In this document: one piece after another, positions 3,638 to 43,681 of the stretch
Position numbering within the stretch: position 1 is the stretch's first letter
Layout of the letters: the number at the start of each line of letters is the position of its first letter
From: Chryseobacterium oryctis
GTDB taxonomy: Bacteria > Bacteroidota > Bacteroidia > Flavobacteriales > Weeksellaceae
Assembly: GCF_025971925.1 (NCBI RefSeq)
Contig: NZ_JAPDHV010000001.1
Location: forward strand, 1 to 64,000
DNA length: 64,000 nt
Reading direction: 5' to 3'
Notes under the pieces: generated by a model
Database searches by the model: none
What the model saw: the letters and a program-made list of their open reading frames with translations, nothing else
What the model was told of the DNA's origin: nothing
Position numbers and translations under genes: made by a program

Positions 3638-3880
3638 CTAATTTATTTTTCCGGATGTTTTCAAAAATATTTTTTCATCAATTCCTGCTTCAGCCAGAAC
3701 CGCTCTCAACGTTCATTCTTTCATTGGCTTCCCTGCGTGGAAAGCAAGAACAAAAGTAGCATCTGTATCCGGATTATATCGCAGTTCATGTGAACCTTTC
3801 CCTTGCCTTACGAATACACAACCTAAAATTTTTAATGACTTTATTACTTCTTTTCTGGAAAATGAATTTCGGACTCCCAT
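3638..3880 (-). CDS. hicA: HicA-family toxin with one in-frame UGA at a glycine position
   Basis: An 80-codon reading frame on the minus strand from ATG 3880 to TAG 3638, interrupted only by TGA at 3713-3715 (codon 56). Around it the HicA double-stranded-RNA-binding fold is clear: FSRKEVIKSLKILGC, FVRQGKGSHEL with the catalytic His, and a GKPMKE-TGA-TLRAVLAEAGI stretch where family members have glycine before TLR. HicA is an mRNA interferase. It starts one base after the HicB stop codon, so the two form an operon with the antitoxin first. If UGA stops translation, the last 25 residues are lost and the toxin is probably inactive; if read as glycine it is full length. Confidence 0.75.
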
Positions 3881-3881
3881 A

Positions 3882-4112
3882 CTATGCCGTTTGAAGACTA
3901 AATTGTAATTTTTTTCTGAATTGATTCACTTTTTTCATTTCCTCAACTGCTTCCAAATAGTCTTTTAGTATAAACGGAGCCAATTCCTTAACCTTCTCAA
4001 TTGTTTCCCCTTCGACCAAAAATCCGGTTAGCCCATCTATAGACCCCAGATAGTAAATCTCTTTACCTTCCTGCATTTTACGAATTTTCAATTCATAATT
4101 TTTTGCAGCCAT
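3882..4112 (-). CDS. hicB: HicB-family antitoxin
   Basis: A 76-residue protein (from MAAKNYELKI; a longer start at 4151 is possible but adds an unlikely hydrophobic tail). The partial RNase-H-like fold of HicB is recognisable: YYLGSIDGLTGFLVEGET then a helix KVKELAPFILKDYLEAVEE, matching the family pattern of a strand pair, G-x-x-x-EG-T and a long helix. It would bind and neutralise the downstream HicA. It contains no TGA codon and stops at TAG, directly abutting hicA. The small size lacks a separate C-terminal DNA-binding domain. Confidence 0.7.
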   Translation of the reverse strand: MAAKNYELKIRKMQEGKEIYYLGSIDGLTGFLVEGETIEKVKELAPFILKDYLEAVEEMKKVNQFRKKLQFSLQTA

Positions 4113-4187
4113 TTGCTTTTGGTACAGAATAAATATTGATATTGTAAGCAAATTAAATTTTATTTCAACACCTGTTTTATCAGGAAA

Positions 4188-5027
4188 TTAAAACAGACTT
4201 GCTTCACTTCCGTCACAGTATTTCCAGTCAAAAAACATCTCAACGTCCAGCTCATCGGCTGCTTTAAATAAGATATGCTTTTGTGCCTGTTTGAAATCCA
4301 TATCTTTATAAAGTTTTCCCATAACTTTCTGCATCACATTTTTATGCTTAAAAATACAAAGCAGACGGCTTCCGTAGTCGATCTTATACTGCTCGGAAAA
4401 TTTTCCGCTTGCCAGCACATTCAGATGCTGTCTTATGCTTGACAAAACCCTTGCAACATCGCTGTCTAAAAACACCTCACAAGCATATAGATCTTCTCTG
4501 TAAGGCGTATTCATCATAAATACGGCATCAGCAATAAGATACTTTGTACGGTCTATCATAATGGCAGACGCTGCACGGTATCCTTTTTCTTTCTCCGTAG
4601 AAACTTTGTCAAAATAAGTGGTAAAAAACACAATACCCAAATCATTCTTCTCAGCAAATATTCTGAGTGAAATTTCAAAATCTATGACCGCAAGACGATG
4701 GAAATAATCAAAGCCAAATACAGGAGAGTTACTCTTCGGATATCTTACAGGAAAACGGTTTCCATAATATTCCCTGAGCTGCTCTGCTCCATAAGGTGTT
4801 AAAAAATGAATGTGTTCCAGCTTACCTTCCACAGGGTGGACGCTGAATGACAGGTTTTGTACCAAAGGTTTTGATAACTGCCTTAATTCCGCGAGCTTCC
4901 TGTTCAAATTTCTCCTGCCCTTCATAATATCAAGACGAAGCATCTGTGATACAGTTAAATATTTGAACTGCCCTAAATTCACCAAAATTTTCTCCATTGA
5001 CGGAGTTATAATGTTTTTTGTCTTCAT
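4188..5027 (-). CDS. Replication-relaxation-like protein
   Basis: A 279-residue protein whose first 70 residues look like a winged-helix (LTVSQMLRLDIMKGRRNLNRKLAELR), followed by a mixed alpha/beta region. This resembles Replic_Relax-type proteins, which are plasmid-encoded, poorly characterised and commonly sit beside a TraG/VirD4-like ATPase, exactly as here (71 bp downstream of the ATPase gene on the same strand). The role could be in conjugative relaxation or plasmid replication. The reading frame is intact with a TAA stop, in contrast to neighbouring genes of the same module that carry in-frame TGA codons. Confidence 0.55.
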   Translation of the reverse strand: MKTKNIITPSMEKILVNLGQFKYLTVSQMLRLDIMKGRRNLNRKLAELRQLSKPLVQNLSFSVHPVEGKLEHIHFLTPYGAEQLREYYGNRFPVRYPKSNSPVFGFDYFHRLAVIDFEISLRIFAEKNDLGIVFFTTYFDKVSTEKEKGYRAASAIMIDRTKYLIADAVFMMNTPYREDLYACEVFLDSDVARVLSSIRQHLNVLASGKFSEQYKIDYGSRLLCIFKHKNVMQKVMGKLYKDMDFKQAQKHILFKAADELDVEMFFDWKYCDGSEASLF

Positions 5028-5098
5028 ATTTTTTGTTTTTGTTTATGAAATAGAGATTTGATTTTAGAAGTGGGAAACCGAATTCTCTGCCTCTTTAA

Positions 5099-6931
5099 TT
5101 ATAATTTGTATTTCACAGGAATCCCCTCTTTTGGAGAAGATTCATTTTTCGTTGGGATTTTTTTTGTTTGAGATGGTGTACCTTCATAAGATGATGATGA
5201 AGGTTCAGGTTCTTTTTTTTCAGGTGCAGTCTGCTTTTCAGGAAGATTATTTTTTGATAATTCCGAAACGGTCGTATCTGCCGGACGATATGCTCCGCTT
5301 TGGTTCAGGCAATATTCTTTTAACGATTTAATTTCTTTTGGCAATAAGAAATAATGTTTCGGATGCTTCAGCAAAAAGTCCGGAGATTTTATTTTTAATG
5401 TTTTGTAATGATCTACTTTCAGATAAAAGTAATACGGCTCGAGTTCCTGCAGCTGACTGTATGACAACCCGAAATCCCCCGCCTGTGCTTTCAGGGCAGG
5501 CATTCCATTGATACCCAGTAATTTTACGGCAGTACAATTAAGAATCATATCCCTCAGTGAAACCGGAAACTGCGTCATCGCCTGACTTGCACAGACTAAA
5601 AAAAGACAATATTTTCTGCTTTCACTGAAGATAGTTTCAAAGGTTTCCGAAGCAAAATTGTGAAACTCGTCTACAAACAGGAAGGTTTTTTTCCTCTTAC
5701 TTTCCGGTTGGAACGCTCTCTTTAATGTAATGCTCAGTAAAGTTGCGGCAATCAGTTTCCCGAGTGCCTTACTGCTCTGCTCTCCGATTTTCCCTTTGCT
5801 TAAATTGATAAGAATGACCTTGCCTTCATTCAATGCTTTTTCCCAGTCAATCGTTGGTTTACCGTTAAGCATCTGGTAAAAAACATAATGGTTCAATAAG
5901 CTTTGCAATCTTGAATAGATGCTCAATTTAGTCAGTGCATACTTTTTATTGGAAAAGGCTGACTCAAAAAATACGCGGTAGGTGTGGTGCGAAGATTTTT
6001 TACCCAATTCGATTAATTCTTCATTTCTGTTATCATCAAAAAAATCCAGCAAATTTGAAAGTCCGAAATTACCATTGCTCATCAATACATACAGACAGGG
6101 TTTTAGCAATACTTCCATGTGTAAAGACAGCCCAGCATCCCCCATTAGTTCCATAAATGCTTTACAGAATTGCTGACACATCAGATCCGCTGTTACAGGA
6201 TCAGAAATTTTATGATAAAAGGGGTTGATGCTGGGAACTTTATCCCTGCTGAAGCTCGGTTCTATATAGATAAGGCGTTCCGGCTTTTGTTGGTTAAGAC
6301 GGAGGGTTAGCAAACTTTCAGTCACATCGCCATGAACATCCAAAAACACGAGTGATGCCTGCTGCTTCTCGTGGGTATGCTTTTGAATCTGCATAAACAG
6401 GGCTTTCATCAGTTCCGTTTTTCCCGAACCTGATTTTCCCGTAATAACAGCGTGTCTTTCTAAATCTTTAAGTTTCAGCGGAACCGGACGCCCTGAAAAG
6501 AAAAAGTCTTTGGCGTGCGGTAGAAATAGTTTAAAAAGCTCAAGGTAATTTTTTTCATGGTCGGCAGTATCAAAAAGTAAAGAAGAATATTTGCTTTTTT
6601 TCAATAGCTCAAAGTATTGTTTTGCATGGACGGATATTTTAGAATATGCTTTTCCTGAATTTGTTCCTGAAGTCGGTAGATGGGATTCCAAAAGCGAAAG
6701 ATATTCTGCAAAAGAAATAAAACGGGTTTTCAACCTTATAAGATACTGCGGAGAATCTATAGGGAGCTTCTCCAGCATTGTATCTGTTTTTATGATATGT
6801 TTTACCAAAAGTCCTTCTCTTATTTCGGGAAACTCTCCTAAAATATAGTTTCCAACTTCAATAGTTGAATAATCAGTAATCTTCCATAAGGAAGCATTGG
6901 TGTTCCAGTGTTGTACATCTTCAATATTCAT
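5099..6931 (-). CDS. T4SS-type DNA-transfer ATPase (TraG/VirD4/HerA-like)
   Basis: A 610-residue P-loop ATPase. Walker A is TGKSGSGKTEL at about residue 163 and Walker B is FLFVDEFHN at about 415, followed by SESRKYCLFLVCASQ, the sensor region of conjugation ATPases. INLSKGKIGEQSSKALGKL is also typical of the TraG/VirB4/HerA-like superfamily. The C-terminal 60 residues are low complexity, rich in Pro, Ser, Lys and Glu. There is no obvious N-terminal membrane segment, so it would act as a soluble coupling or DNA-pumping ATPase in mobilisation. It is the first gene of a leftward pair with the replication-relaxation-like gene. No in-frame TGA. Confidence 0.8.
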   Translation of the reverse strand: MNIEDVQHWNTNASLWKITDYSTIEVGNYILGEFPEIREGLLVKHIIKTDTMLEKLPIDSPQYLIRLKTRFISFAEYLSLLESHLPTSGTNSGKAYSKISVHAKQYFELLKKSKYSSLLFDTADHEKNYLELFKLFLPHAKDFFFSGRPVPLKLKDLERHAVITGKSGSGKTELMKALFMQIQKHTHEKQQASLVFLDVHGDVTESLLTLRLNQQKPERLIYIEPSFSRDKVPSINPFYHKISDPVTADLMCQQFCKAFMELMGDAGLSLHMEVLLKPCLYVLMSNGNFGLSNLLDFFDDNRNEELIELGKKSSHHTYRVFFESAFSNKKYALTKLSIYSRLQSLLNHYVFYQMLNGKPTIDWEKALNEGKVILINLSKGKIGEQSSKALGKLIAATLLSITLKRAFQPESKRKKTFLFVDEFHNFASETFETIFSESRKYCLFLVCASQAMTQFPVSLRDMILNCTAVKLLGINGMPALKAQAGDFGLSYSQLQELEPYYFYLKVDHYKTLKIKSPDFLLKHPKHYFLLPKEIKSLKEYCLNQSGAYRPADTTVSELSKNNLPEKQTAPEKKEPEPSSSSYEGTPSQTKKIPTKNESSPKEGIPVKYKL

Positions 6932-7564: not shown

Positions 7565-7810
7565 ATGAAAAAATTAGTCAACAAAACCGTCAATCTGGAT
7601 TTGTCCGGGACTGACGGTAACGCCTTTGTTTTATTAGGCAAATTTGGTCGGGAGGCCCGCAGGCAGGGCTGGACACATCAGGAAATCGACCTCGTCGTGG
7701 AGGAATGCAAAAAAGGAGACTACGATCATCTTCTGGCTACACTTCTTTTATACTGCGAACCTTCGGACGAGAACGACTCCGAATATTCTGAAATTGAAAA
7801 CCAGGAATAA
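7565..7810 (+). CDS. Small conserved plasmid/phage protein, unknown function
   Basis: An 81-residue acidic protein. The middle (NAFVLLGKFGREARRQGWTHQEIDLVVEECKKGDYDHLLATLLLYC) resembles small proteins seen in phage and plasmid early regions, with the pattern of a helix-rich regulatory or accessory factor; no function is known to me. It is the first gene of a rightward run of eight short genes and ends two bases before the next start, so it is cotranscribed with it. Confidence 0.65.
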   Translation: MKKLVNKTVNLDLSGTDGNAFVLLGKFGREARRQGWTHQEIDLVVEECKKGDYDHLLATLLLYCEPSDENDSEYSEIENQE

Positions 7811-7812
7811 CT

Positions 7813-8427
7813 ATGGGAACAAGAAACTTAACTATAGTAAAGTACGGGGGCGAAATAAAAATTGCCCAGTACGGTCAGTGGGACGGATACCCTGAAGGTC
7901 AGGGTTTGACCATTCTCAATTTCCTTTTGGAAGATGAGAACGTAGAGCAACTGAAGCAGGTGCTTCCCAAAGTACGATTTCAGAATGAAGAGGATATCAG
8001 GAAGGTTCAGGAATTTCTCAACTCAATCGGAGCCCAAGACGGCTGGATGAATAATGACCAATATAATAGGTTTACATATGAATATCCTTTACTCGTCCGT
8101 GATTTGGGAGGAGAAATTCTTGAAAAAATCCTGACACTCAAGGATCAGCCGGAAATTGTTCTTGCCAATTCTTATGAGTTTGCATCGGACAGCCTTTTCT
8201 GTGAATGGGCTTATGTGATAGACTTCGATAAAAACACCTTTGAAGTCTATACAGGTTTCAACAAAAAACGAATTACTCCTGAAGACCGCTTCTTTGATTT
8301 GTGCAAGGAAGATCGGGAAAATCCGGAATATTATCCGGTACTCCTGTTTCTGTCTTTCCCACTTAATAATCTGCCGTATGGTGATGAATTCATTATCAGG
8401 TGCAGGCTTAAATGGGAACAAAAATAG
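7813..8427 (+). CDS. Conserved plasmid/phage hypothetical protein
   Basis: A 204-residue soluble protein that begins GTRNLTIVKYGGEIKIAQYG, a start found in a family of phage and plasmid proteins of unknown function. It has no signal peptide or membrane segment and is rich in aromatic and acidic residues. It starts two bases after the preceding gene and is followed by a 100-bp gap. Function unknown; its company of DUF2958 and DUF6283-like genes points to a plasmid maintenance or host-takeover role. Confidence 0.65.
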   Translation: MGTRNLTIVKYGGEIKIAQYGQWDGYPEGQGLTILNFLLEDENVEQLKQVLPKVRFQNEEDIRKVQEFLNSIGAQDGWMNNDQYNRFTYEYPLLVRDLGGEILEKILTLKDQPEIVLANSYEFASDSLFCEWAYVIDFDKNTFEVYTGFNKKRITPEDRFFDLCKEDRENPEYYPVLLFLSFPLNNLPYGDEFIIRCRLKWEQK

Positions 8428-8529
8428 AAACGGAAAAGAAAACAGCAGACCGTAGACAGCAGGTGGAAACACTTGCTGTTTACCGCCTGATGTTTCTATA
8501 AAAAAACAACCAATAAAAATTTATCAAAA

Positions 8530-9108
8530 ATGAAAACAAATCCTACAAAAGACCGTTTGCAGGTCTTATGCTTTCTTACAATGCTTCGTCAAAATTTGGA
8601 GAAAGAGAAAACAGACGAATATTGCCCGATCCTGCCGGAACTCTTCATAAAAGCAGATCTGGTAGAAATTCTCAAATGGCTCTATATGAATAAAATCCCC
8701 TCTTCTCTTGGAGAAATAGAGGGAATGGACAGAGAGGAAGTTCTCAATGCCATCGGAGGCGATGTCTATATCCTGTCTTATATCATTGAACAATGGGAGG
8801 AAAAAACCGACTATCCGGTCACGGTAACAAAAGTTTACAACCTGTTATACCAGTTGGGAACCCAGACCCATTATCTGATGGAAAAAGAATTATCGGAATG
8901 GGATGAGTACGACCACAGCAATTACAAAGCTCTGTGCAGAAAGGCGGGAATTCCCCAAGCCATGTACGGAATTTACGATGTGGGAGTCACTGAACAGGAA
9001 AAATATATTACTATGCCGGTTACGGGTTTGTATGACCGTGAACCGGAAGCAAAGGCTGTCCTCGCATCTCTGAGATCTGATAATCAATATAAGCTCATGA
9101 AACTTTAA
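8530..9108 (+). CDS. Hypothetical protein sharing a domain with the gene at 10447
   Basis: A 192-residue soluble, acidic protein. Residues about 40-90 (an LVEIL helix, then REEVLNAIGGDVYILSYI) align with residues about 35-95 of the protein at 10447 (ELVEMV, then EGILNLIESDYQIITYM), so the two share a small helical domain. Nothing else is recognisable. It belongs to the rightward small-gene operon and ends nine bases before the next start. Confidence 0.6.
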   Translation: MKTNPTKDRLQVLCFLTMLRQNLEKEKTDEYCPILPELFIKADLVEILKWLYMNKIPSSLGEIEGMDREEVLNAIGGDVYILSYIIEQWEEKTDYPVTVTKVYNLLYQLGTQTHYLMEKELSEWDEYDHSNYKALCRKAGIPQAMYGIYDVGVTEQEKYITMPVTGLYDREPEAKAVLASLRSDNQYKLMKL

Positions 9109-9117
9109 ACCCGATGT

Positions 9118-9570
9118 ATGAATACAAAAAAGCAAGAACCCTTTATTGAACATTTCGATGACCTGACCAAAGCAATGGACTTCGCCGTATGGAAGAATTT
9201 TGAGAACCGTATGAAAAAAGAACAATTTGGTGTATTAGACGCACCGGAAGAAAATTATGCGGTAGTCAATCAGGCGATGCTTATGGATCTGGAAATGGAA
9301 TTTCAGTATCCGCTTCCTGAGGATTATGACTGGATTGATTATAACAAAATCAGAACTATTCGGATGGATTACGATCCTCTGTCTCATTGGGAAGAACTTA
9401 CGGGAGCATTTTCTGTAATGAATGGCGAACTATTACGGTTCATTTTAAAGTTTGATGTTCCGCTAAAGAAATTCATCCGCTACGAACTCGCCTCGCGGGG
9501 TTATGATGAAAACCACCAATGGGTGGGCTTTGACAAAGCAGAAGAAATATGGTTTAACTCCAAACGATGA
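9118..9570 (+). CDS. Hypothetical small plasmid protein
   Basis: A 150-residue acidic, soluble protein rich in Trp, Tyr and Asp. No domain recognised. Its TGA stop overlaps the ATG of the next gene (ATGA at 9567-9570), which shows translational coupling and shows that TGA works as a true stop in this part of the element: reading through would run the product across the following gene in another frame. Confidence 0.6.
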   Translation: MNTKKQEPFIEHFDDLTKAMDFAVWKNFENRMKKEQFGVLDAPEENYAVVNQAMLMDLEMEFQYPLPEDYDWIDYNKIRTIRMDYDPLSHWEELTGAFSVMNGELLRFILKFDVPLKKFIRYELASRGYDENHQWVGFDKAEEIWFNSKR

Positions 9571-9800
9571 ACAAAAATAAACCCAGTATGGCAGCACCGG
9601 ATATTAAACAGATTTTGTTTCTCAACAAAAAACTGCACAACGAGTATCTCGAAGTGTATGAAGAAGCTCCGCTGACCTTTGAAGAATTTGTGAACTTCAT
9701 GCTTGGAACATTGTACGACAACGATAATACTGTTGAAGAAATTATTCCTGTTGATGATGGCAATGCATTTATCATCATTTACAGGATTCCGATGAAGTAA
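9567..9800 (+). CDS. Hypothetical small plasmid protein
   Basis: A 77-residue acidic protein; a later start at 9588 (MAAPDIKQ) is also possible. The sequence shows a helical middle (FEEFVNFMLGTLYDN) and a C-terminal strand pair (AFIIIYRIPMK). No family recognised. Start and stop overlap with the upstream gene, so the pair is translated together. Confidence 0.55.
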   Translation: MNKNKPSMAAPDIKQILFLNKKLHNEYLEVYEEAPLTFEEFVNFMLGTLYDNDNTVEEIIPVDDGNAFIIIYRIPMK

Positions 9801-9830
9801 CCTTTCACATCAACCTTAATACAGTACAAA

Positions 9831-10085
9831 ATGGAAATCGATCCTGAAAAAGTTCCGGTTATGAAAAACTTTTGTGCGACCTGTCCATTCAAACCGGATA
9901 AAGATGGAAGATGGCAGGATCCCAAACTGGCTGATGCAGTTGTAAGCAGGACATTGTTCCAAGCCCACCAAATCTGCCACGGCACAGAAGGAGAAAACAG
10001 GGAGCCCAGATTCCGCTGTAAAGGAGCTTTTGAGCACAACCTCGAAATCTACCGCAGATTGGGACTGGATGAACATATAAAATAA
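9831..10085 (+). CDS. DUF6283-like cysteine-rich protein
   Basis: An 84-residue protein with the arrangement C-x2-C near residue 16 (CATCPFKPDKDG), then QICHGT and FRCKGA, i.e. four Cys and one or two His that could bind a metal. This matches the DUF6283 pattern of phage and plasmid proteins; function unknown. It is a member of the small-gene operon, 30 bp behind the previous gene. Confidence 0.6.
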   Translation: MEIDPEKVPVMKNFCATCPFKPDKDGRWQDPKLADAVVSRTLFQAHQICHGTEGENREPRFRCKGAFEHNLEIYRRLGLDEHIK

Positions 10086-10107
10086 ATATACCCAACCAAG
10101 AAATAAT

Positions 10108-10413
10108 ATGAAGTTAATTACAGAACATCTTCAAAAGCGGTTTGCCGAAATCGGCAGTCAGAGTGAAGATCTTAATCCGTTAATCATTGCCAAGTTTTTC
10201 AATCCGATAGGAGGACAAACTTGGTATGCTTCGGAATATAATTCTCAAACCCGTATCTGCTTCGGTTATGTTACGGGGATGATGCATGATGAGTGGGGTT
10301 ATTTTTCCATTGATGAGATGGAATCCATCGTATTACCTTTTGAATTAACCATCGAAAGGGATACCTACTTTGAGGAAATCCGGTTTAATGACCTGAAAAA
10401 ATCACTCCAATAG
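10108..10413 (+). CDS. DUF2958-family plasmid protein
   Basis: A 101-residue protein with the DUF2958 layout: KLITEHLQKRF, then IIAKFFNPIGGQTWYASEY, FGYVTGMMHDEWGYFSIDE and FELTIERDTYFEE. DUF2958 proteins are common on conjugative plasmids and integrative elements and have no assigned activity. Spacing of 22 bp from the previous gene supports one operon. Confidence 0.75.
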   Translation: MKLITEHLQKRFAEIGSQSEDLNPLIIAKFFNPIGGQTWYASEYNSQTRICFGYVTGMMHDEWGYFSIDEMESIVLPFELTIERDTYFEEIRFNDLKKSLQ

Positions 10414-10446
10414 TATAAATTAAAAAACAAGCAAAAATTAAATCAA

Positions 10447-11142
10447 ATGGATAACAACAAACAATCCCTACTGAAAATCTTTTCGGTGCTGCTTAAAAAG
10501 AAAGCATCAGAAAAGCAACCATTGGAATCTAAAACCATCAGTCCTGTATTAATTAAATACTTTACAAGAAAAGAGCTGGTGGAAATGGTTTCACAGACGT
10601 ATGGTCAGGAACTGCCTGACAACAAGAACTTACTGGAACTGGAGAACGAGGGAATTTTAAACCTCATAGAATCCGATTACCAGATTATCACCTATATGTG
10701 TGAAAAATGGCTGAAAGAAGAGAGAGAACAAAAACTCAATCCTCAGCCAATTCCTGAAAACACCCACTCCTCTGCTGAGGATAGTCATTCCGAAAAATTA
10801 CCGGAAACTCAAACGGAAAATGAAGTACTGTCTGAAATTGAACGTAATGCTGAGAATGAAACCGTTTCTCAGGAATTTTCTGAAAATATTTCCGAACAGG
10901 AAGCAGCTTCGGGAAATATAGATGAACCTGCTGCTGAAGAGGATATTCCGCAAACAGAAAATTCAGAAAACGAACCAGCCGAACCATTGTATGAAGAAGA
11001 AAATCAGGAACAAACTTCTGAATCCGATCCGGAAGAACAAGGATTGGAACATGAACCGGAGATTGAAGAAGAACACGCTTCTGAAGAATACTCCTCTTTT
11101 TCAGGCTCAAAAAACAAAAGTAAGAATAGAAAGCATCGCTAA
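10447..11142 (+). CDS. Acidic-tailed hypothetical protein
   Basis: A 231-residue protein with a small helical N-terminal domain (residues 1-100) shared with the product of 8530, followed by about 120 residues that are mostly Glu, Ser, Asn and Pro, and a short basic end (SKNKSKNRKHR). The acidic tail could be a DNA mimic or a charge-based binding region, but this is only inference from composition. A hairpin (11206-11231) follows, so it is the last gene of the intact small-gene operon. The next gene is the first with in-frame TGA codons. Confidence 0.55.
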   Translation: MDNNKQSLLKIFSVLLKKKASEKQPLESKTISPVLIKYFTRKELVEMVSQTYGQELPDNKNLLELENEGILNLIESDYQIITYMCEKWLKEEREQKLNPQPIPENTHSSAEDSHSEKLPETQTENEVLSEIERNAENETVSQEFSENISEQEAASGNIDEPAAEEDIPQTENSENEPAEPLYEEENQEQTSESDPEEQGLEHEPEIEEEHASEEYSSFSGSKNKSKNRKHR

Positions 11143-11277: not shown

Positions 11278-12105
11278 ATGTTACAAAGCAGAATTACATT
11301 TAAGCCGCCAGTGTCATATTTTTGATGAAAACAGGTTATGGCAAAGGAAATTATTCCACTTATTCCTAAAAATATCAAAGTCTACTGTGAGCCTTATTTC
11401 GGATGATGAGCTATTTTTTGGATGAAACCGGAAACGGCTCCCTGTGAGATTATTAACGACATCAACGGAAACGTAATTAATTTTTATAAAACTCTGAAAA
11501 CAAGATTTCCCGAACTCAAAAAGAAAATTGAACTTACCCTGCATTCAAGGGAGGAATACAAAAAGGCGATGATTATCTATAATTCCCCACGATTATTCGA
11601 TGACCAGCCTGTAATCAGAGCCTGGGCATTTTATGTAAGCTGTAATATGGGCTATCTGCATCAGGCGTGAAGCCGGGGTTTTGACAAAGAAAAATCGGCA
11701 ATTTCTTTTAAAAATAAAGTAGAACGTTTTGGAGAGGAACTCTCCGAGCGTCTCCGCAATACGCAGATTGAATGTAACGAAGCTCATAAAATAATCCAAA
11801 GCAGGGACTCTGAAAATTCCTTCTTTTATTGTGATCCTCCATATACAAGCGATTTGGGCGTAAAAGTGCATCAGTGACATTACGAAGGTTATACACACCA
11901 GCATCTGGAGCGTGACCTTACTGTACTTTCACAGATTAAAGGAAATTTTTTGTTGTCCAACTACCCTTCACAACTTCTTATGGATTTCGCCAAAAAGCAC
12001 AACCGATATGTAAAAACTTTTGACAAATCACTTTCCGCAGCTCATAAGAGCAAAAGAGGAAACAGAAGAAAAACTGAGGTTTTGGTGGCGAATTATCCGA
12101 TATAA
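11278..12105 (+). CDS. Dam-like (D12 class) DNA N6-adenine methyltransferase with six in-frame UGA codons
   Basis: One continuous 275-codon frame from ATG 11278 to TAA 12103-12105, broken only by TGA at 11323, 11326, 11404, 11407, 11668 and 11875 (codons 16, 17, 43, 44, 131, 200). It is a D12-class N6-adenine methyltransferase: SYF-TGA-TGA-KQ stands for the invariant YFGGKQ; YCEPYFG-TGA-TGA-AIFW stands for the EPFFGGGA SAM-binding motif I; CDPPYTSD is the catalytic DPPY motif; and VHQ-TGA-HYEGYT fits the GHYxGYT stretch. At these five motif sites TGA lies on a conserved glycine. The C-terminal SNYP and KTEVLVANYPI segments are normal. No frameshift and no internal TAA or TAG. Under the standard code the product would stop after 15 residues. 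It would modify element or host DNA, perhaps for self-protection. Confidence 0.85.
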
Positions 12106-12168: not shown

Positions 12169-12351
12169 ATGAATTCTATTACTCAAGAAAAAACCGCTCG
12201 CTTTATGAAAAACAGAACCCTCCGCAGAATCAGACAAAGAATCAGGCAGAAAGCATTTAAGAATGAGCACATTTCAATTGCTAAACTCAGAAAAGGCTAT
12301 GAAAAATACAAACTACCGCCGAAGTCTGGCAAAAGGCTATCCAAAAAATAA
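12169..12351 (+). CDS. Small basic hypothetical protein
   Basis: A 60-residue, strongly basic peptide with an Arg/Lys-rich helix (NRTLRRIRQRIRQKAF), possibly nucleic-acid binding. It overlaps the proposed start of the C5 methyltransferase (ATG 12299) by 53 bp in another frame. It may be a real small regulator or a chance frame; without relatives I cannot say. Confidence 0.4.
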   Translation: MNSITQEKTARFMKNRTLRRIRQRIRQKAFKNEHISIAKLRKGYEKYKLPPKSGKRLSKK

Positions 12352-13336
12352 CGGACTGAAAGTTTTTGGAACATTCGTTGGCGGCGGAGGCTCCACGATG
12401 GGATATAAGCTCGCCGGCTTTCGCCATCTTTGAGGTGTTGAGATTGACAAGAAAATGGTAAAAATGTACCTCCCCAATCACTCCCCTGATTATTTCTACC
12501 ACGAAGATATCAGGGAGTTCAACCAAAGAAATGACCTGCCCTGCGAACTATATGATCTGGATATTCTGGACGGCTCCCCTCCCTGCAGCACGTTTTCAAT
12601 GGCGTGAGCCCGTGAAAAAAACCGATGACAGGAAAAATCATTTAAGGAATGACAGAAGAAACAAATCCTTGATGAGCTGGTTTTTGTATTCTGTGATACG
12701 GTGCAAAAGCTCCTCCCGAAAGTAGTTGTTATGGAAAATGTTCCGGGACTGATTGCAGGGAGAGCTACGGGATACGCCATCGAAATTTATGAAAGATTAA
12801 ACCGTATGGGCTATGATGTTCAGATATTCAGAATCAATTCAGCAACAATGGGAGTTCCGCAGGCTCGTGAACGCATCTTCTTTATCGGAAGAAGAAGAGA
12901 CTTACAGTTTGATGAACTCGTTTTGGATTTCGATGAGCTGCCGATATACTTTGATTCGATTGCAGATAAAAATTCCACTACACATCCTCCACTCCGGCCA
13001 TCTGTAGTTGTGAGACGACCTTATGTAGAATACGGAGACCAATGCCTGAAATTTGCTGATGCCAAATACAGAAAACTGAATACTTACAATGCGTTTTTCA
13101 GTACCAGCATTGTTTACGACCACGTTGTGGCTCCCACATTGACCAGCAGCGGTGCTACCCTGTATTATGAGCAGGCCCGCAATCTAAATGATACCGAATA
13201 CATTCGTATGAGCAGTTTTCCTTTGGATTTTAACTTCTGCTGAATCTCTGTACGTTATGTTTGCTGAATGAGTGTGCCTCCCCTAATGACCGCAGGAATT
13301 GCCAATGAAATAAAAAAGCAATGGTTCGAGAAATAA
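12299..13336 (+). CDS. DNA C5-cytosine methyltransferase with six in-frame UGA codons
   Basis: A 345-codon frame from ATG 12299 to TAA 13334-13336, interrupted only by TGA at 12431, 12605, 12626, 12650, 13241 and 13265. It is a C5-cytosine methyltransferase: motif I FGTFVGGGGSTMGYKLAGF, SAM-contact VEID after a TGA at the glycine of L-G-GVEID, catalytic motif IV GSPPCSTFSMA-TGA (family FSMAG), FKE-TGA-QKKQILD (family FREGQ-K-Q), motif VI VVMENVPGL, motif VIII QARERIFFIG, and motif X YVC-TGA-MSVPPLM (family YVCGMSVPP). Each TGA is compatible with glycine. Ordinary GGA codons also occur. No other interruption. The product would methylate cytosine at an unknown target site, alongside the Dam-like enzyme upstream. 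Confidence 0.85.
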
Positions 13337-13837: not shown

Positions 13838-14401
13838 GTGATAACTAATGGTTATCAGGTATTTAATTCGTTATATCATAGTATGGATTATCCAAAAGCA
13901 GACGCAGAAAGAATGCTGGAAATCAGCCAGACCACTTTTTACAAACGGGTAAAAAATTTAGATATTCAGTTGGTCAGCAAAATCAATGAAAAGGGGAAAA
14001 GTGTCTATATCAGGGAAGAGGATATACAGAAAATGGCAGATGCTTTGTGAAAAGGCAGACTCAATTTTGGTCAGACACAATATCAAAATGATAAGGCGTT
14101 TGAAGCAGAGGAGTCAGAACCCCATCAGGAAGTGATACAGAAAAATTTTGATTTGCAAATCAAAATTAAAGAAAAAGAGGCAGAGCTTAAAGCCAGCCAA
14201 TGGGTAATATCAGTATTTAAAGAACAAAATCAGGAATTGAGATTACAGAGAGATAATGTCCAGACTAAACATATGGAATTGTCTGATAAATATGTAAAAA
14301 TATCAATTCGTGCCACCGCCTTTTGAATCGCTTCTATTACTTTGTTCCTGCTGTTAATCGGATTTGTATTATTGGTTATGTTTGGCAAATTGCAGTTTTA
14401 G
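13838..14401 (+). CDS. HTH/coiled-coil membrane-anchored plasmid protein with two in-frame UGA codons
   Basis: A 187-codon frame from GTG 13838 (or ATG at codon 16) to TAG 14399-14401, with TGA at 14048 and 14324. Residues about 18-68 form a helix-turn-helix (DAERMLEISQTTFYKRVKN, IREEDIQKMAD), 100-160 a coiled coil (IKIKEKEAELKASQWVI), and the last 25 residues a membrane helix (IASITLFLLLIGFVLLVMFG). The second TGA falls at the start of the membrane helix, the first in a loop after the HTH; glycine suits both. It sits directly upstream of the iteron region and Rep gene, as plasmid partition or regulatory genes often do. Function unassigned. Confidence 0.65.
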
Positions 14402-14700
14402 TTCAGCAGAAAGGGGAGTAATATCCTCGAAAGAAGGGTAAACGAAGTTCGGAAGAACCTGTCCCGAAAAAGTAGCCTTATATTATGATTTATACAGAGA
14501 TTCTTTAGTCGAAATCTACTGAAAAACAGTGTGTTCATTAGTATTTTAATACTTATTAAACAGGAAAAACAACAACAGCTTTATTCTCTCTATTAATAAA
14601 TGTTGTCTTATTATTTAAAATATTATAGTACTTACCGTACGGCAAAGTATTGGTACAGAGCCGGAAATAGAGGATTTCGGCAACTATGGCGGGACGAAAG

Positions 14701-14875
14701 GCTACCAAAACAGGGCGAAAAGAAACCTGTACGGGCTGTATCGGCTACCAAACTATACTGTATTATAACCAAAACAGACCTTACTTGCTACCAAATCGGG
14801 GAATTGCTACCAAAATGGGGTATAAATACGGCTACCTGCGAAAGATACCAGTAGCCCAACCGAGTAGCCGATAAA
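14701..14875. repeat. Iteron array, candidate plasmid replication origin
   Basis: Direct copies of GCTACCAAA start at 14701, 14744, 14787 and 14806, with degenerate copies between (for example near 14765), giving a period of about 21 bp. Just after them lies an inverted pair (CGGCTAC near 14829 and GTAGCCG near 14864). The whole block lies 60-240 bp upstream of the Rep gene start and matches the layout of an iteron-type origin with a Rep-dimer operator. The 14402-14700 stretch before it is AT-rich and otherwise featureless. Confidence 0.7.
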
Positions 14876-14937: not shown

Positions 14938-16155
14938 ATGAATCAACTTGTCAAGAAAAGTCATGAGCTGGTAATGGGAAAGTTTTCCTTCAGTTTATTG
15001 GAGCTTCGTCTTTTTTCACTTATTGTGAGTATGATTGATGACCGTGATGAAGATTTTAAAACATATAAGATTGCCGTAAAGGATATTATGGCAACTTTCA
15101 ATCTTAAATCCAAGACCATATATGCCGAAATTCAGCAGATTACAACCTCTATGCTCAAGAAAATTATTGTAATTCCTGTTCAGGAAGACTGAATACACAA
15201 GGAAATCAAAAGTACGCTGATGTCCAGTTTTAAGTATGAAGTTTCCGGCAGAGGAGTCATCGAAGCGACTTTTAATCCCATTCTTAAACCCTATCTTCTC
15301 CAGCTCAAATCAAAATTTCTGTTGTATAATATTTCCAATATTCTTCAAATTGGCTCTGCAACATCCATAAGAATTTTTGAACTTCTCAAAACTTTTGAAT
15401 GAGTTAAGCAAAAGACATTCTCTTTGCAGGAACTCAAAGAAATTTTAGGAGTTGAAAATAATTATAGCAAATATTCTAACTTCAAAACGAAAATTTTACT
15501 GAAAAGCCAGAAGGATTTGGAAATGTTCACGGATATTCGTTTTACATTTAAAGAAATTTCTGAAAATTCGAGACGTGTGGAGAAAATACAGTTCTTTATT
15601 CATCCCAATACACCTCAATGAAAAAAACTACCCCTAAACGATAAAGATACCGGAGAAGAGGACTACAATGAGGCTCCGGAGAAAATACGGCACGGTGAAA
15701 TGCTGGCTTTCGGGCTGTCTGAAGATGTTATAAATAATGAAATCCTGAAAAAGTACGATGAAGATTACATTTTTAATACATTGGAGCATTGTAAAACCTA
15801 TTTCAAAAAGAATAAGATCGATAATAAGGCAGGATTTTTTATAAAAGCATTGGATAAGTGATTCTACCAGCAGGAGATAGAAAATTCAAAATTGAAAAAT
15901 GAGAAAAAAGATGAAAGAGAAAAGACCAAAGAAGCAGAGGAGTCAGCAAAACAGAAAGAAACCCAGCTCCGTGAAGAAAAACTCCAAAAATTGAGAGATC
16001 AGTATATGACAGAGGAACTTATCCTTCAAGTTCTCGAATCGTATCAGGAAAATTTTCTTTATACCCTGATGAAAAAAGACCTTGAGAACGGAAAGATTAA
16101 TAAATTCCTTCAGGTATTTGTCGATAAGAAACTGCTTGAATTGTACGACCAATAA
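14938..16155 (+). CDS. Rep_3-type plasmid replication initiator with four in-frame UGA codons
   Basis: A 405-codon frame from ATG 14938 to TAA 16153-16155, with TGA at 15190, 15400, 15619 and 15859. It is a RepA/RepB (Rep_3 superfamily) initiator: tandem winged-helix domains with LVMGKFSFSLLELRLFSLI, SFKYEVSGRGVIEATFN, LKPYLLQLKSKFLLYN and SATSIRIFELL, then SLQELKEILGV. The last TGA falls in FIKALDK-TGA-FYQQ, where relatives have glycine (A-I-x-x-G-[FYW]). The C-terminal third is a charged coiled coil. It should bind the iterons just upstream and start replication of the excised or ancestral plasmid. Under the standard code the product would end at residue 84. Confidence 0.8.
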
Positions 16156-16193: not shown

Positions 16194-16502
16194 GTGCTGA
16201 AAAATCAAAACTGTATTTTCTGTACAATGCAGAGAAATGCTGCCAATCCGTTTCGATGCTTTGATATGTCCAAAGGTTCCGTATTTAAAGATTTTAAAGA
16301 AAGTGCATGAGGATATTATGTATATATTCCCTATAACCATTTTACAAGCAGGGAAAGTATTTCTACGGAGGATTGGGGTTTGTATCTGGAAGAAATCGGA
16401 GGATTTTTGCAATATCTTAAAACCATACAGACCGATATTAAAACAATCCGTACTGAATGTAGGGAATTTCCCCATGTTTATTGGAATATTATTCCGGAGT
16501 AG
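16194..16502 (+). CDS. Small hypothetical protein with one in-frame UGA
   Basis: A 102-codon frame from GTG 16194 (or ATG 16227) to TAG 16500-16502, with TGA at 16308-16310 in FKESA-TGA-GYYVYIPY, so it would read as a Gly-Gly pair. The sequence is protein-like (NHFTSRESISTEDWGLYLEE, then a helical C-terminus ending in YWNIIPE) but I do not recognise the family. It follows the Rep gene by 38 bp and may be in the same transcript. Confidence 0.55.
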
Positions 16503-16530: not shown

Positions 16531-16884
16531 TTATAATAAATCTAATTCCAGTTCTACATACAATTGTGAGGCGGTTTCCAAAAAAGCAAACCGTGCAAGG
16601 GAGTTTTTCAGGTCTCATTCTATGGGAACAGGCTCTCCGTTTTCTGCTTCATACAATTGCCTTAATGCCTCAATTTCATTATAATATTTGTCAAAGAAAG
16701 CGTGGGAGTTAATCATACAGTTGACCTTTAGCCCTCTGCCTTCATACTGGAGAAGGTTTCCAAAAAACTGGATGCAATTTGTTTGCTTGAGAATTTCTTT
16801 CGCTACTTCTTTTCTTATGCTGTCCTTCTCTTCATTACCAATCACGCGAAGAATCTTTTTTAATGCCTGTCCTTCCATTTTCAT
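16531..16884 (-). CDS. Small hypothetical protein with one in-frame UGA (minus strand)
   Basis: A 117-codon minus-strand frame from ATG 16884 to TAA 16533-16531, with TGA at 16617-16615. Up to the TGA it reads 89 residues ending EPVPIE. Beyond it the frame continues with protein-like sequence, DLKNSLARFAFLETASQLYV, which resembles the end of plasmid/phage proteins having a G-D-x-x-N-x-x-A-x-FAFEETA pattern, so the TGA sits at the expected glycine. It is transcribed against the neighbouring genes. Function unknown. Confidence 0.6.
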
Positions 16885-16926
16885 TAATAATGCTCATAAT
16901 GAGAATATAAAATACGGGTAGACTAT

Positions 16927-17028
16927 ATGAATAATGCTGATTTGGAAGAAAATATCAAGATAATACACGGGCTTGCAATTCTACACTCTATTAAATATAA
17001 GCATATTAAAATTGATAATGCTTTCTAA
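16927..17028 (+). CDS. Possible 33-residue peptide
   Basis: A short open frame (MNNADLEENIKIIHGLAILH..., TAA stop) with balanced composition and a position in line with the next gene, 33 bp away. It could be a small element protein or noise. Confidence 0.3.
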   Translation: MNNADLEENIKIIHGLAILHSIKYKHIKIDNAF

Positions 17029-17061: not shown

Positions 17062-17295
17062 ATGCACAAAACAGAAATCCAGAAAAGATGGAGAAGAAAA
17101 AAAGGGATAAAACCTCAATTATCTGAATGAGAAAAGACAGAAATAAAAAGATTAAGATTTGGAGAAAAACTGACACTGTCCGAGATAGCAGAAAAATATA
17201 ATCGTTCCGTCGAATGAATACGCAAAATCGTATGACCGTCTTCTGTCTACAGTATGAGAGCAAAGTGAAAAAGAAAATCAAAAGCACTTGTATAA
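17062..17295 (+). CDS. Small HTH DNA-binding protein with four in-frame UGA codons
   Basis: A 77-codon frame from ATG 17062 to TAA 17293-17295 with TGA at 17128, 17209+5 (SVE-TGA-IRKIV at 17214-17216), 17233-17235 and 17272-17274. It encodes a short basic protein with a homeodomain-like helix-turn-helix: LTLSEIAEKYNRSVE then a TGA and IRKIV, the recognition helix, where glycine is common. Four UGA codons in 77 is the highest density in the window. It would regulate transcription of the element or act as an excisionase-like factor. The candidate guide RNA begins 27 bp downstream. Confidence 0.65.
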
Positions 17296-17471: not shown

Positions 17472-17867
17472 ATGGACAACAAGAAATTTCATTTTGTAAA
17501 GTATGAGTACGGAACGGTAGAAGCGAAAGACGGACAGGAAGCCGGGAATATGGCAGCCCACCCTTTAGCACCGAAAAAAAGTGATGTATTGATTATGGTT
17601 TCTCAAAAACTCGGCACTCCTGTTTTTCCTAACCTGAAGCATCAGGAGATTATTGAAAGGCTCACTCATCTGGAAACTGTTATTATCTGGAAAGAGGAGC
17701 ATTTCGAGCAAAAAGCCAAAGAGTTAGAAAAATCATCGGACAAGACCTTTGACAGAAGCCTGTTCACAAAAGCACTTTACGAAATGATTAAAAATCACAA
17801 CCGTGATGAAGGTATATCCTGGTCTACGGTAGAGTATTATCTGAAAAAGTTTTGTTCCACTAATTAA
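17472..17867 (+). CDS. Hypothetical plasmid-module protein
   Basis: A 131-residue soluble protein with no TGA codon inside and a TAA stop. The N-terminus is charged and the C-terminal half helical (KTFDRSLFTKALYEMIKNH, WSTVEYYLKKFC), reminiscent of small element-encoded regulators, but I recognise no family. It is the last gene of the plasmid-like module and is closed by the terminator at 17874. Confidence 0.5.
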   Translation: MDNKKFHFVKYEYGTVEAKDGQEAGNMAAHPLAPKKSDVLIMVSQKLGTPVFPNLKHQEIIERLTHLETVIIWKEEHFEQKAKELEKSSDKTFDRSLFTKALYEMIKNHNRDEGISWSTVEYYLKKFCSTN

Positions 17868-28620: not shown

Positions 28621-28648
28621 ATCCTGATAGTTTATCAGGATTTTTTTA
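28621..28648 (+). terminator. Rho-independent terminator
   Basis: ATCCTGATA and TATCAGGAT arms around a short loop, followed by seven T, directly after the stop of the gene at 27749. Confidence 0.8.
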
Positions 28649-28847
28649 TATGTCTTTTATGAACGTTCACATTTTGTAAAGAAAATGTCCGGATAATGCT
28701 CAGATTTTGTATCAATTCCCCTGAAAGCCCCTTGTACCTTTGCTACGGAAAAACAAATGAAATTTCTGAAAAAAATCTATTCTGGCTGATAAATTCTCGG
28801 AAGTCGCCCCCTAATAATGAGCTATTCCAGACTTCCTGTCAGCTTTT

Positions 28848-28875
28848 ACCCGCCCCTTTTTTGGGGTGGGTTTCT
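28848..28875 (+). terminator. GC-rich hairpin before the membrane-protein module
   Basis: ACCCGCCCC paired with GGGGTGGGT around T-rich loop, followed by TTT, 30 bp before the gene at 28906. The rest of 28649-28847 shows no gene. It may be an attenuator-like element for the downstream operon. Confidence 0.5.
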
Positions 28876-28905
28876 AAAAAAAATTAATATTAAAAACACA
28901 CAAAA

Positions 28906-29646: not shown

Positions 29647-29689
29647 ATCCATCTCTCAACATAATTTACAACTTATTAAAACATAAATA

Positions 29690-31168: not shown

Positions 31169-31194
31169 TAACAACCCCTTAAATTTCAAATATT

Positions 31195-31971: not shown

Positions 31972-32031
31972 AATTTTTTAGGGGAGGCAAAAATCCGACC
32001 TCCCTATTTCTTAATCATACAAAACAACAAA

Positions 32032-32334
32032 ATGATAAATTTTAATTTTGAAAAAACCGAAGAACCCATTCAGCTTATTCAGGTTGATTCTATCACATTC
32101 TATGAATTGTTGAAGCAGGTTTACGAAAAGCTTCTCAACCATAAGAAATCAGAAAAAAAAGAATGGCTGACCCCAAAAGAAGCCATGAGCTTTTTAAATA
32201 TAAAATCCAAAACCACACTGGCAAAGCTCCGGCAGACAGGAGCAATCTCGTATTCTCAGTTTGGTAAGAAGATTCTGTATCATTCGGAATCTATCCAAGA
32301 ATACCTAAATGAAAACACTTTTGACAGATTTTAA
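32032..32334 (+). CDS. Helix-turn-helix (excisionase-like) protein
   Basis: A 100-residue protein with a MerR/HTH_17-type helix-turn-helix in its C-terminal half: EWLTPKEAMSFLNIKSKTTL followed by AKLRQTGAISYSQFGKKILY. This matches Bacteroidetes element-encoded excisionase-like or regulatory proteins. It could regulate the preceding operon or excision. Confidence 0.75.
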   Translation: MINFNFEKTEEPIQLIQVDSITFYELLKQVYEKLLNHKKSEKKEWLTPKEAMSFLNIKSKTTLAKLRQTGAISYSQFGKKILYHSESIQEYLNENTFDRF

Positions 32335-32385
32335 GATTTTAACTTTTTCCAAAAAAAATTTACAAACTATTTAATATTTAATAAA

Positions 32386-32982
32386 ATGAAAAAAACAGTA
32401 AAAAGCCCGATAATACAAACATTATCATTAGTAGAAAGTTACAATTTTTATATTGAAAACAAGATAAGACGAGAAGAGCTGATATCTAATTTTTCGAGAT
32501 ATAAACCATCTGTCCCGTTTAGTTCTCGCCTTAACGATTGGATAAGCGAATGGTATGAGAAACATAAGTCAATTTTCGAATTCGTGGATGACGATGATTT
32601 CAATTCCAAAGATATAAAGGAAACCCTCGACAGGTATGTGAAACTGTATAATGAAACAGGTAGAATACGGATTTGGACGGGAGGTAGTGAGCTTACGATC
32701 TTCGGATCGGCACAAATGAATCACCTATTCCGAGCGTGGCATGAGTTCACTCATATTATTCATCAATCAGGATTTGATTTTGCAGGGGAGTCAATTGTCG
32801 CTTCAATTCAAATTTCAGAGCTGCCTTCGGATTGGATTCTGGAAAAAGAGCTGATTATCATTGAAATTTTGGGGCAAAACCAGTATTATTCAAAACACAA
32901 AAGATTTCTTATCAATCAAAGGAAATACTGCGTTGATTATTTGAAGAATCCTGCATCAGCAATTCTTACTAAGCAAAGTTAA
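32386..32982 (+). CDS. Hypothetical protein with an HExxH motif
   Basis: A 198-residue soluble protein. Residues about 120-140 read AWHEFTHIIHQSGFDFAGE: an HExxH pair and a downstream Glu, as in zinc metallopeptidases, within a family pattern of plasmid/phage proteins (H-[DE]-x-x-H ... F ... G-E) of unknown function. Whether it is a protease is inference. It follows the HTH gene by 51 bp. Confidence 0.5.
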   Translation: MKKTVKSPIIQTLSLVESYNFYIENKIRREELISNFSRYKPSVPFSSRLNDWISEWYEKHKSIFEFVDDDDFNSKDIKETLDRYVKLYNETGRIRIWTGGSELTIFGSAQMNHLFRAWHEFTHIIHQSGFDFAGESIVASIQISELPSDWILEKELIIIEILGQNQYYSKHKRFLINQRKYCVDYLKNPASAILTKQS

Positions 32983-42379: not shown

Positions 42380-42425
42380 ATATAAATTTTAAAAACTCTG
42401 CCCCGAAAAACTCTTAAAACTAAAA

Positions 42426-42531
42426 GCGTGGGACATTTGCCATAGCTTGCCGTTGAGGTGGTCGAATACCTTGCACACAAGTATGTAAAGCCCACGCAGG
42501 AGGTGAGCGTTATCCATACTTTCTTGTGTGC
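42426..42531. repeat. Structured palindromic element, possibly a dispersed repeat
   Basis: GCGTGGG (42426-42432) pairs with CCCACGC (42491-42497), and GCACACAAG (42473-42481) with CTTGTGTGC (42523-42531), so two alternative or interlocked stems. It is 65 bp between the first arms, similar to a tRNA, but there is no T-loop signature. The minus strand also has a 66-codon frame (VWITLTSCVGFTYLCARY) that I suspect is a translated repeat sequence rather than a gene. It may be an RNA or a genome-wide repeat. Confidence 0.4.
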
Positions 42532-42576
42532 CATTATGAATTTTCGACCTTTCAACCGGCAAGAAAATAGAAACAA

Positions 42577-42925
42577 CCGCTAATTAGTTATATTCTAAAA
42601 TCGTTAAAAATTTTTTGTCTTATAAAGACGGGATAAAAGTAATAAAAATGTAGCAGAGTAGGGTGTTTTTGGAATTAAATATTGTCTTAATTCCCTCTTA
42701 ATCTCAATTTTATCGTTTAAATCTAACATGTAAACATATTAGATGTATATAATCACTCATTGAAAGTGTACGATCACACATTATAACATTGATATCCATA
42801 GTATTATCAAAAAATCTTCAAATTTTCAGATATTGTTTTTCAAAATCAGATTGTTTTATTTTTTGCATTCTATTTTATTATAGTTATAATTAAAGCTGTT
42901 GATTTAGAAATAAACGATTTATACA
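42577..42925. other. 349-bp AT-rich intergenic region
   Basis: No gene seen. It is markedly AT-rich and holds the upstream region of the AT-rich gene at 42926. No clear promoter box or tRNA is visible. Confidence 0.5.
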
Positions 42926-43681
42926 ATGCTTCCAACTACTTTTCTTATTCTTCAAAGCCTTTTAAGTACTATTTTGTCTATTGCACTTATTATGCTGATA
43001 AACAATTTTTTCTTTAAAAAACATAAGTTGTCCGTCATTAAATTGCTGCGAATTTCGTTTGTGAGTTTTTTTATTGTCTTATTATTTTGATCGATAAATA
43101 TCATATTAGGCTGTATAGGTTTGTTGCTTATAACAATATTTATGTTTTGGAATATTCTAAAACCCGACTTCAAAAAAACAATATGTTTATCGCTAATCCG
43201 AATTATTACAATAGTGCTGATGAATGCCTGATTGTCATATCTTGCCAACTTTTTTTATTTTAATCATGTTATTTTAAAAGGTGCAGAAGCTGATTCAATC
43301 ATTGTTGATAATACAAATAGCAGCTATATAAGTGACATATTATCAGAGAAACAAAACGCTCTAATATTATCGGGGGTGATTCCCTCTTCAGAGGATTTGG
43401 AAGAAGAATCAGAATGCTACAAAAGTAAAGAACCTTATATTTGCCCTGATTGAACGAATGTATGGTATTATGAAAATATGTATGATAAATTAGAAGAAAT
43501 GACATATCAGTTTACCGGATGATCTGCAACCAACAGTTGTGAACAAATTAAAGGATATGATTTGGCACAATATTATGACTGTATAGATAAGCTGTCAAGA
43601 GCAATAAAAAATATTAACCTTTGCGACAATCATAAAAATCAGAAAAGAAAATCAGAATGTCAATTATCCATAAAGGAATAA
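42926..43681 (+). CDS. AT-rich membrane protein with four in-frame UGA codons
   Basis: A 251-codon frame from ATG 42926 to TAA 43679-43681, broken only by TGA at 43088, 43229, 43451 and 43520. The N-terminal 115 residues contain four hydrophobic helices (LSTILSIALIMLINNFFF, ISFVSFFIVLLF, IGLLLITIFMFWNIL, IRIITIVLM). The C-terminal 130 residues are soluble and Cys-rich. The TGA contexts (LLF-SINIIL, NA-LSYL, ICPD-TNVW, FTG-SATN) suit glycine, especially CPDGT and FTGGSA; tryptophan cannot be excluded for the first two. The gene is more AT-rich than its neighbours and separate from the main recoded block, so it may be of another origin, such as UGA-glycine Absconditabacteria/Gracilibacteria. 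Confidence 0.6.

Follow-up and report, generated by a model that had tools for sequence, protein, structure and literature searches.

A predicted mobile element of Bacteroidota with two gene sets in two genetic codes

We analysed a 64-kb stretch of DNA (the window), which opens a 797 kb contig in the 3.5 Mb genome of Chryseobacterium oryctis; this genome falls into one genus-level group with Chryseobacterium limigenitum (G129). The window carries a predicted mobile element that combines a set of genes in the standard code with a second set in the code of Absconditabacteria (SR1; NCBI translation table 37). We consider it likely that the element shuttles between Bacteroidota and an Absconditabacteria-like host, and that either cell would translate its own set only. 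Both codes occur within one element, its copies follow a common gene order, and both sets are under purifying selection. Trees of genes A and B of the element and of its Dam-like methyltransferase contain the same main groups, and two host genomes hold no tRNA that matches the altered code.

Nine frames of the window contain in-frame TGA and no internal TAA or TAG. They encode a HicA-like toxin, a Dam-like and a C5 DNA methyltransferase, a helix-turn-helix (HTH)/membrane protein, a Rep3-family initiator (Rep), three small proteins (HIT-like, DUF7222-like, sigma-like) and an AT-rich membrane protein. In total, 29 TGA are found when counting after the likely starts (additional TGA of the HicA and DUF7222 frames all precede the likely ATG). 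Both frames and count agree with a first-pass annotation of this DNA. Pfam matches run across the TGA sites, i.e., MethyltransfD12 (1.8e-22), DNA_methylase (1.5e-38), Rep3_N (5.6e-31) and HicA_toxin (2.5e-13). Since C5 relatives in three further genomes of this genus share in-frame TGA, the frames are, by sequence comparison, far beyond chance.

To read the codons, we aligned the eight recoded C5 copies with ten standard relatives and tabulated columns with at least 70% agreement. Here, TGA faces Gly in 39/41 cells, while CGA faces Trp in 15/15 and CGG in 12/12 (together 27/27). That is, the apparent Trp to Arg changes at conserved tryptophans of recoded C5 genes are CGA or CGG codons. The remaining Arg codons keep their meaning (CGT 25/25, CGC 8/8, AGG 14/14, AGA 29/31; together 76/78 Arg). 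As a control, CGA/CGG of C5 homologues without TGA face Arg in 220 cases and Trp in 3 (160 homologues examined). Similar results are observed for Dam, for which ten copies were compared with 11 distinct standard relatives (14 before identical rows were dropped): TGA faces Gly in 43/55 cells (otherwise Ser 8, Pro 3, Phe 1), and the 37 CGA/CGG cells face Trp 27 times, His 10 times and Arg 0 times. The His cells form one column with CGA or CGG in all ten copies. In HicA, the single TGA lies within the conserved KEGTLR stretch and a CGA at a Trp/Tyr-like position after GSHEL; in 1whz, the residues opposite the TGA and the CGA are G and Y, respectively. The residue facing TGA was judged without the three frames that lack relatives (HIT-like, sigma-like and 42926-43681).

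The first-pass annotation had read UGA as glycine and proposed such a tabulation of residues at TGA sites in homologue alignments; with mainly Gly in C5 and Dam, this reading is upheld. It had overlooked the second half of the code, i.e., CGA/CGG as Trp, such that recoding of UGA only does not describe these genes. Its pointer to Absconditabacteria/Gracilibacteria was right. Absconditabacteria are reported to read UGA as Gly as well as CGA and CGG as Trp, while some Gracilibacteria share the CGG change only (PMC8629427). Judged by the alignments, the recoded genes use this published code with UGA = Gly, CGA/CGG = Trp and CGU/CGC/AGA/AGG = Arg. The codon changes are the same and the other four Arg codons are likewise unchanged; the difference is that the code is limited here to some genes inside standard-code genomes.

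The mark of recoding is also visible in database proteins. Among the matches listed (of 7,511), 17/120 C5 proteins look recoded and 103/120 show no mark. Again among the matches listed, 15/17 recoded-looking proteins have W called at a conserved Gly and 17/17 have R in at least one of three Trp columns. Many metagenomic Rep relatives likewise show W at conserved Gly, so the recoded Rep family appears to be wider than the genomes examined. The metagenomic Rep proteins P0005-P0020 are entries where gene callers read TGA as Trp.

Next, we asked which cell could read the recoded genes. Over the Rfam cut-off, 61 tRNAs are found in the C. oryctis genome (types assigned by ARAGORN and, for two tRNAs, by eye) and 55, all typed, in G142, an element-carrying genome of the same genus (two contigs, 99% complete). 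Among the typed tRNAs of both genomes, there is none with a UCA anticodon and no Trp tRNA for CGA/CGG (Trp tRNA CCA only), while Arg tRNAs for CGA/CGG are present. Of nine sub-threshold matches in the C. oryctis genome, six were read by ARAGORN or by eye. The tRNA-Sec model gave no match over cut-off, ARAGORN found no UCA tRNA in or around the elements, and cmscan found no tRNA in L053, L054, L056 and positions 1-46000 of the window. RF2 is present without internal stop in G000, G142, G026 and G129. Because tRNA-Gly(UCA) and a CGA/CGG-reading Trp tRNA are absent from the C. oryctis genome and G142, the carrier cell does not use the Absconditabacteria code. The suppressor tRNA that had been suggested for the host thus finds no support, also because a reassigned sense codon (CGA/CGG) is not solvable by a stop suppressor alone.

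It might still be that the Bacteroidota host at times translates UGA into Gly and CGA/CGG into Trp via missed or incoming tRNAs, and copies have so far been found in Bacteroidota only. We consider this very unlikely given the 61 and 55 typed tRNAs, the Arg tRNAs that serve these codons, the presence of RF2 and the lack of tRNAs in the elements; furthermore, reading CGA/CGG as Trp would corrupt host proteins. Apart from these searches, an array of about 14 tRNA genes was seen on the minus strand of contig C11 (351716-357330; L001 6716-12330) next to a frame that we take to be RNA-ligase-like. Its Gln and Phe tRNAs seem to share a T-loop insertion of about 50 bases, while its other tRNAs look worn.

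The element is known from ten distinct copies in eight Bacteroidota genomes or metagenome-assembled genomes, plus a fragment on contig C24 of the C. oryctis genome. The copies are those of the window, G026a, G026b, G129a, G129b, G142, G149, G072, G163 and L062 (locus L061 is G149, and L063 is G129a, i.e., the first element of G129). From the layouts of L061, L062, L063 and eight loci of fetched genomes, the common order is A, B, then C-I, then Dam, C5, HTH and Rep, as far as present. The conserved core spans about 4.2-17.9 kb of the window, where the features are as follows.

2391..3599, plus strand: tyrosine recombinase (integrase), standard code; Pfam Arm-DNA-bind_5, Phage_int_SAM_5, Phage_integrase
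3638..3880, minus strand: HicA-like toxin of a toxin-antitoxin pair, recoded; 1 TGA
3882..4151, minus strand: putative antitoxin of HicB type, judged by its position; without Pfam match
4188..5027, minus strand: gene A, Replic_Relax-like (PF13814 3.9e-05, just under cut-off); no TGA/CGA/CGG here
5099..6931, minus strand: gene B, coupling-type ATPase (TrwB/HerA-like; PF01935 7.5e-10, PF10412 4.3e-09), standard code; no TGA/CGA/CGG
7565..11142, plus strand: standard-code block of genes C-I, conserved across other copies
7565-7810, 7813-8427 and 8530-9108, plus strand: genes C, D and E, standard code
9118-9570 (TGA stop), 9567-9800 and 9831-10085, plus strand: genes F, G and H, standard code
10108-10413 and 10447-11142, plus strand: DUF2958 gene (3.5e-15) and gene I, standard code
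11278..12105, plus strand: Dam-like D12 DNA methyltransferase, recoded; 6 TGA, 2 CGA, 1 CGG
12263..13336, plus strand: C5 cytosine DNA methyltransferase, recoded; 6 TGA, 3 CGA, 1 CGG
13838..14401, plus strand: HTH/membrane protein, recoded; 2 TGA, 1 CGG; no Pfam family
14700..14814, plus strand: likely origin, with four 10-nt repeats that resemble iterons (GGCTACCAAA / TGCTACCAAA); upstream of Rep
14938..16155, plus strand: Rep3-family replication initiator, recoded; 4 TGA, 1 CGG; Rep3_C 2.6e-10 besides Rep3_N
16194..16502, plus strand: HIT-like small protein; 1 TGA, 1 CGA; PF11969 7e-04, under cut-off
16531..16968, minus strand: DUF7222-like protein; 1 TGA past the likely ATG, where G026a has Gly
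17062..17295, plus strand: small protein with sigma-70 region 4-like HTH; 4 TGA; PF04545 1.6e-07
17472..17867, plus strand: gene K, standard code
42926..43681, plus strand: lone AT-rich membrane-protein frame outside the core; 4 TGA, 2 CGA

A protein search with C5 in 148 genomes of the genus yields five relatives with 72-75% identity in three genomes (G026 twice, G142, G129 twice), each with 4-8 in-frame TGA; two of the five matches list one TAA each, which lies outside the continuous frame. A C5 fragment with 2 TGA is located on contig C24, and a distant relative in G076 (45% identity) has no TGA. Among relatives, TGA and Gly swap at the same alignment columns. For Dam, searched in 320 genomes of the family, recoded copies are found in 8 genomes (10 loci, 3-8 TGA), while 15 of 16 distant loci (at most 49% identity) have no internal stop and one has a single TAG. 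Dam is recoded in 10/10 copies, C5 in the 8/8 having it, and HTH as well as Rep in the 7/7 having them. Within the fetched stretches, C5 was not found in G072 and G163, and HTH and Rep were not found in G129b, G072 and G163. Gene K is present in 8/9 copies searched (long flanks or window), i.e., in the window, G026a, G026b, G129a, G129b, G142, G072 and the C24 fragment; it was not found in G149 and G163. At a threshold of E 1e-100, C5 searches in the order and phylum samples (395 each) return the C. oryctis genome only. All matches among plasmid records, searched by C5 and Rep, are below 60% identity, and viral contigs gave 11 weak matches to Rep. A second, broken copy of the element lies on contig C24 (L057 643-6078); it comprises genes D and K, DUF2958 and the C5 fragment, in which recoded codons occur.

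These counts already refute random decay, sequencing error or chimeric assembly, whose probability we put close to nil. A partial Dam locus with a TAA in G094 speaks for such an explanation. It is outweighed by ten copies from several assemblies, one of them on a 3.46 Mb contig, by frames without TAA/TAG and by codon meanings that equal a published code.

Genes A and B use the standard code in seven copies; the other three (G129b, G072, G163) have them recoded. Both G129 (C17 and C34) and G026 (C2 twice) hold two different copies, and in G129 A/B are standard in one copy and recoded in the other. For genes C-I, CGA/CGG never face Trp; in D, F and I they face Arg more than any other residue, and the conserved stretches of most genes are without TGA across copies. 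TGA stops occur in 13/80 genes of the standard set (two being start-choice artefacts) versus 5/60 and 7/61 host frames. CGA/CGG make up 0.13 (C-I, K) and 0.09 (A, B) of the Arg codons versus 0.085 and 0.17 in host frames. By these measures, the standard set reads as truly standard code. Gene F (9118-9570) of the element itself ends at TGA, in line with the earlier statement that TGA serves as an ordinary stop in the same stretch. That annotation had also drawn one recoded module over 3638..43681. Recoded genes do lie inside this span, while the genes at 7565-11142 use the ordinary code. The window's genes A and B, free of TGA/CGA/CGG, prompted the alternative that the standard set is readable in both codes; this was rejected for the whole set given its TGA stops and host-like CGA/CGG usage.

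We then compared sister copies for selection. Between G129a and G142, recoded genes show ratios of nonsynonymous to synonymous divergence (dN/dS) of 0.05-0.10 with dS 0.25-0.59, and standard genes 0.10-0.15 with dS 0.33-0.69, except for the short gene H (dS 0.08, dN/dS 0.33). The proteins compared here are 91-98% identical, with four TGA/GGN switches and one TGG/CGG switch. L061 versus L063 gives dN/dS of 0.06-0.12 (recoded) and 0.09-0.25 (standard). For the window versus G026b, dS is saturated in 5/10 genes and the other five show 0.08-0.18. Nearly all genes of both sets show strong purifying selection between sister copies. As a rough yardstick, neutral evolution of a 1205-codon block was simulated with equal base changes at the observed dS, which yields a mean of 33 TAA/TAG with a minimum of 15 (500 runs), compared to 0 in the G142 block. 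On dN/dS and the simulation, we reject the view that the recoded genes are dead.

The same data bear on the view that an Absconditabacteria-like plasmid once joined Bacteroidota elements, with its genes now idle and unread. Its appeal is that the genes would be truncated in every known carrier, that no copy in a second host was found and that the G094 copy and the C24 fragment are partial. We nevertheless regard it as unlikely, since idle genes fit neither the low dN/dS and TGA/GGN switches between G129a and G142 nor the lack of TAA/TAG in the G142 block. Moreover, Dam is recoded and open in all ten copies, and recoded and standard genes share their main tree groups.

Respective groups of the A+B and the Dam tree are window + G026b, G129a + G142 + G149 and G129b + G072 + G163, while G026a and L062 are placed differently. 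In a tree of 67 rows, the recoded C5 genes cluster into a single clade (100/100) amid standard genes. This tree includes 52 of the 103 non-recoded database matches (every second id) and leaves out the 17 recoded-looking database proteins, as their TGA is called as W. The recoded A/B genes of the three copies also form one clade (100/100). Since recoded C5 and recoded A/B are one clade each, the trees, all midpoint-rooted only, suggest that genes passed from the standard into the altered code.

We return to the proposed element with two hosts. By domain content, its recoded set resembles a small replicon, i.e., a Rep3 initiator, iteron-like repeats, HTH, two methyltransferases and, in the window copy, HicA. 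Of the parts expected of an integrative mobilisable element (coupling protein, relaxase, integrase, attachment sites), a coupling ATPase is found, the Replic_Relax match is just under cut-off and an integrase is beside the core only in the window copy. G026b and G129b have weak integrase matches far from the core, and the link of the integrase to the element is therefore unsure. We favour, somewhat less firmly than the two-host reading as such, a replicon that uses the code difference as a host sensor: a chromosomal programme in standard code would run in Bacteroidota, and a plasmid with the second programme in a table-37 epibiont entered by direct cell contact, such that genes change language with their workplace. 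In Bacteroidota, the element would sit in the chromosome with its standard genes at work (C-I and K, joined by A and B in seven copies), while Rep and the methyltransferases would be truncated at UGA and mistranslated at CGA/CGG; under the standard code, Rep meets a premature stop at 15190. Where A and B are standard, the standard-code genes would move the element; where they are recoded (three copies), the altered-code cell would do the moving. Within the Absconditabacteria-like cell, the element would become a plasmid by means of Rep and the iteron-like repeats, would be shielded from restriction by the two methyltransferases and, in the window copy, would be held there by the HicA-like toxin. 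The genetic code itself would be the host sensor, and genes could switch language, as A and B may have done in their one clade of three copies. The idea of UGA as a lock on genes of this kind is thereby kept in altered form, i.e., the code probably decides the host in which genes work.

The toxin also invites the reading of a weapon or leash, where the element enters attached epibionts and expresses toxin and methylation genes only there, to the benefit of the Bacteroidota host. The HicA-like toxin is indeed recoded, while its presumed HicB antitoxin reads alike in both codes because it contains no TGA, CGA or CGG. On the other hand, HicA is found in the window copy only and an addiction pair equally suits plasmid upkeep, such that we deem this highly improbable.

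Several observations weigh against an element with two hosts. No copy has come to light in an Absconditabacteria genome, so we infer the second host from the code alone; the transfer is inferred as well. None of the 80 matches listed, of 115 C5 relatives in a search of 84,980 species, carries an Absconditabacteria title, and recoding is not seen in 80 viral-contig C5 relatives among the matches listed. Not all cells of the codon tables agree: 12/55 Dam TGA cells are not Gly and 10/37 CGA/CGG cells are not Trp, and TGA faces Gly in just 12/32 (HTH) and 25/42 (Rep) partner residues. One of ten Dam loci (G094) is the partial one with a TAA, and some copies lack C5, HTH or Rep. Conversely, an association of Absconditabacteria with Bacteroidetes, for which read-coverage correlation is reported to give moderate support (PMC8406219), fits two hosts, and a parasitic lifestyle of Absconditabacteria is supported by PMC8080830.

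Like Rep3 iteron plasmids and mobilisable elements of Bacteroidota, the element has a Rep3 initiator, iteron-like repeats and a coupling ATPase, with both Rep3_N and Rep3_C domains and four 10-nt repeats beside rep; in contrast to them, its initiator is unreadable by the carrier cell. Stop-recoding phages with their own suppressor tRNA include crAss-like phages. Such phages (PMC10746230) resemble the element in having reassigned stops in some genes only, while for the element no suppressor tRNA is found and sense codons are reassigned too. Liu et al. propose phages that possibly infect both code-25 and standard-code bacteria, with nine Gracilibacteria dual-target cases whose genes are readable in both codes and five putative Gracilibacteria phages that match Bacteroidetes spacers (PMC10746230). 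The likeness is two hosts with different codes. The difference is that the dual-target phages are, in that account, mostly readable in both codes (two cases being clearly code 25), whereas the element holds two single-code sets and does not avoid the differing codons: its second set is dense in TGA/CGA/CGG. In a literature search by titles and abstract openings, with most subscription papers and preprints outside its scope, no description of a two-code element was found.

Differing genetic codes are usually seen as a barrier to gene exchange; the element, if our reading is true, turns this barrier into a switch. Sequence alone would then point to the hosts of uncultured Absconditabacteria, a long-open question, namely Chryseobacterium, Flavobacterium and kin, and the element would be a natural vehicle that possibly reaches Absconditabacteria. 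In public genomes, standard annotation leaves such recoded genes fragmented; the protein database contains, e.g., a Rep fragment from Chryseobacterium sp. PS-8 that ends where the recoded frame continues.

Finally, some features of the window stand apart. The frame at 42926-43681 is far from the core, its protein gave no match in a homologue search, and it is perhaps another piece of recoded DNA. On the minus strand, 49801-49855 holds the 3' half of a tRNA that lacks its 5' half, possibly what is left of an attachment site. The standard-block proteins have PHROG matches to entries of unknown function. A block at 24272-32982, which comprises several unknown genes besides that of a large nSTAND NTPase-like protein, contains no TGA; it also occurs near the element in G026b and G129a, in both cases free of TGA.

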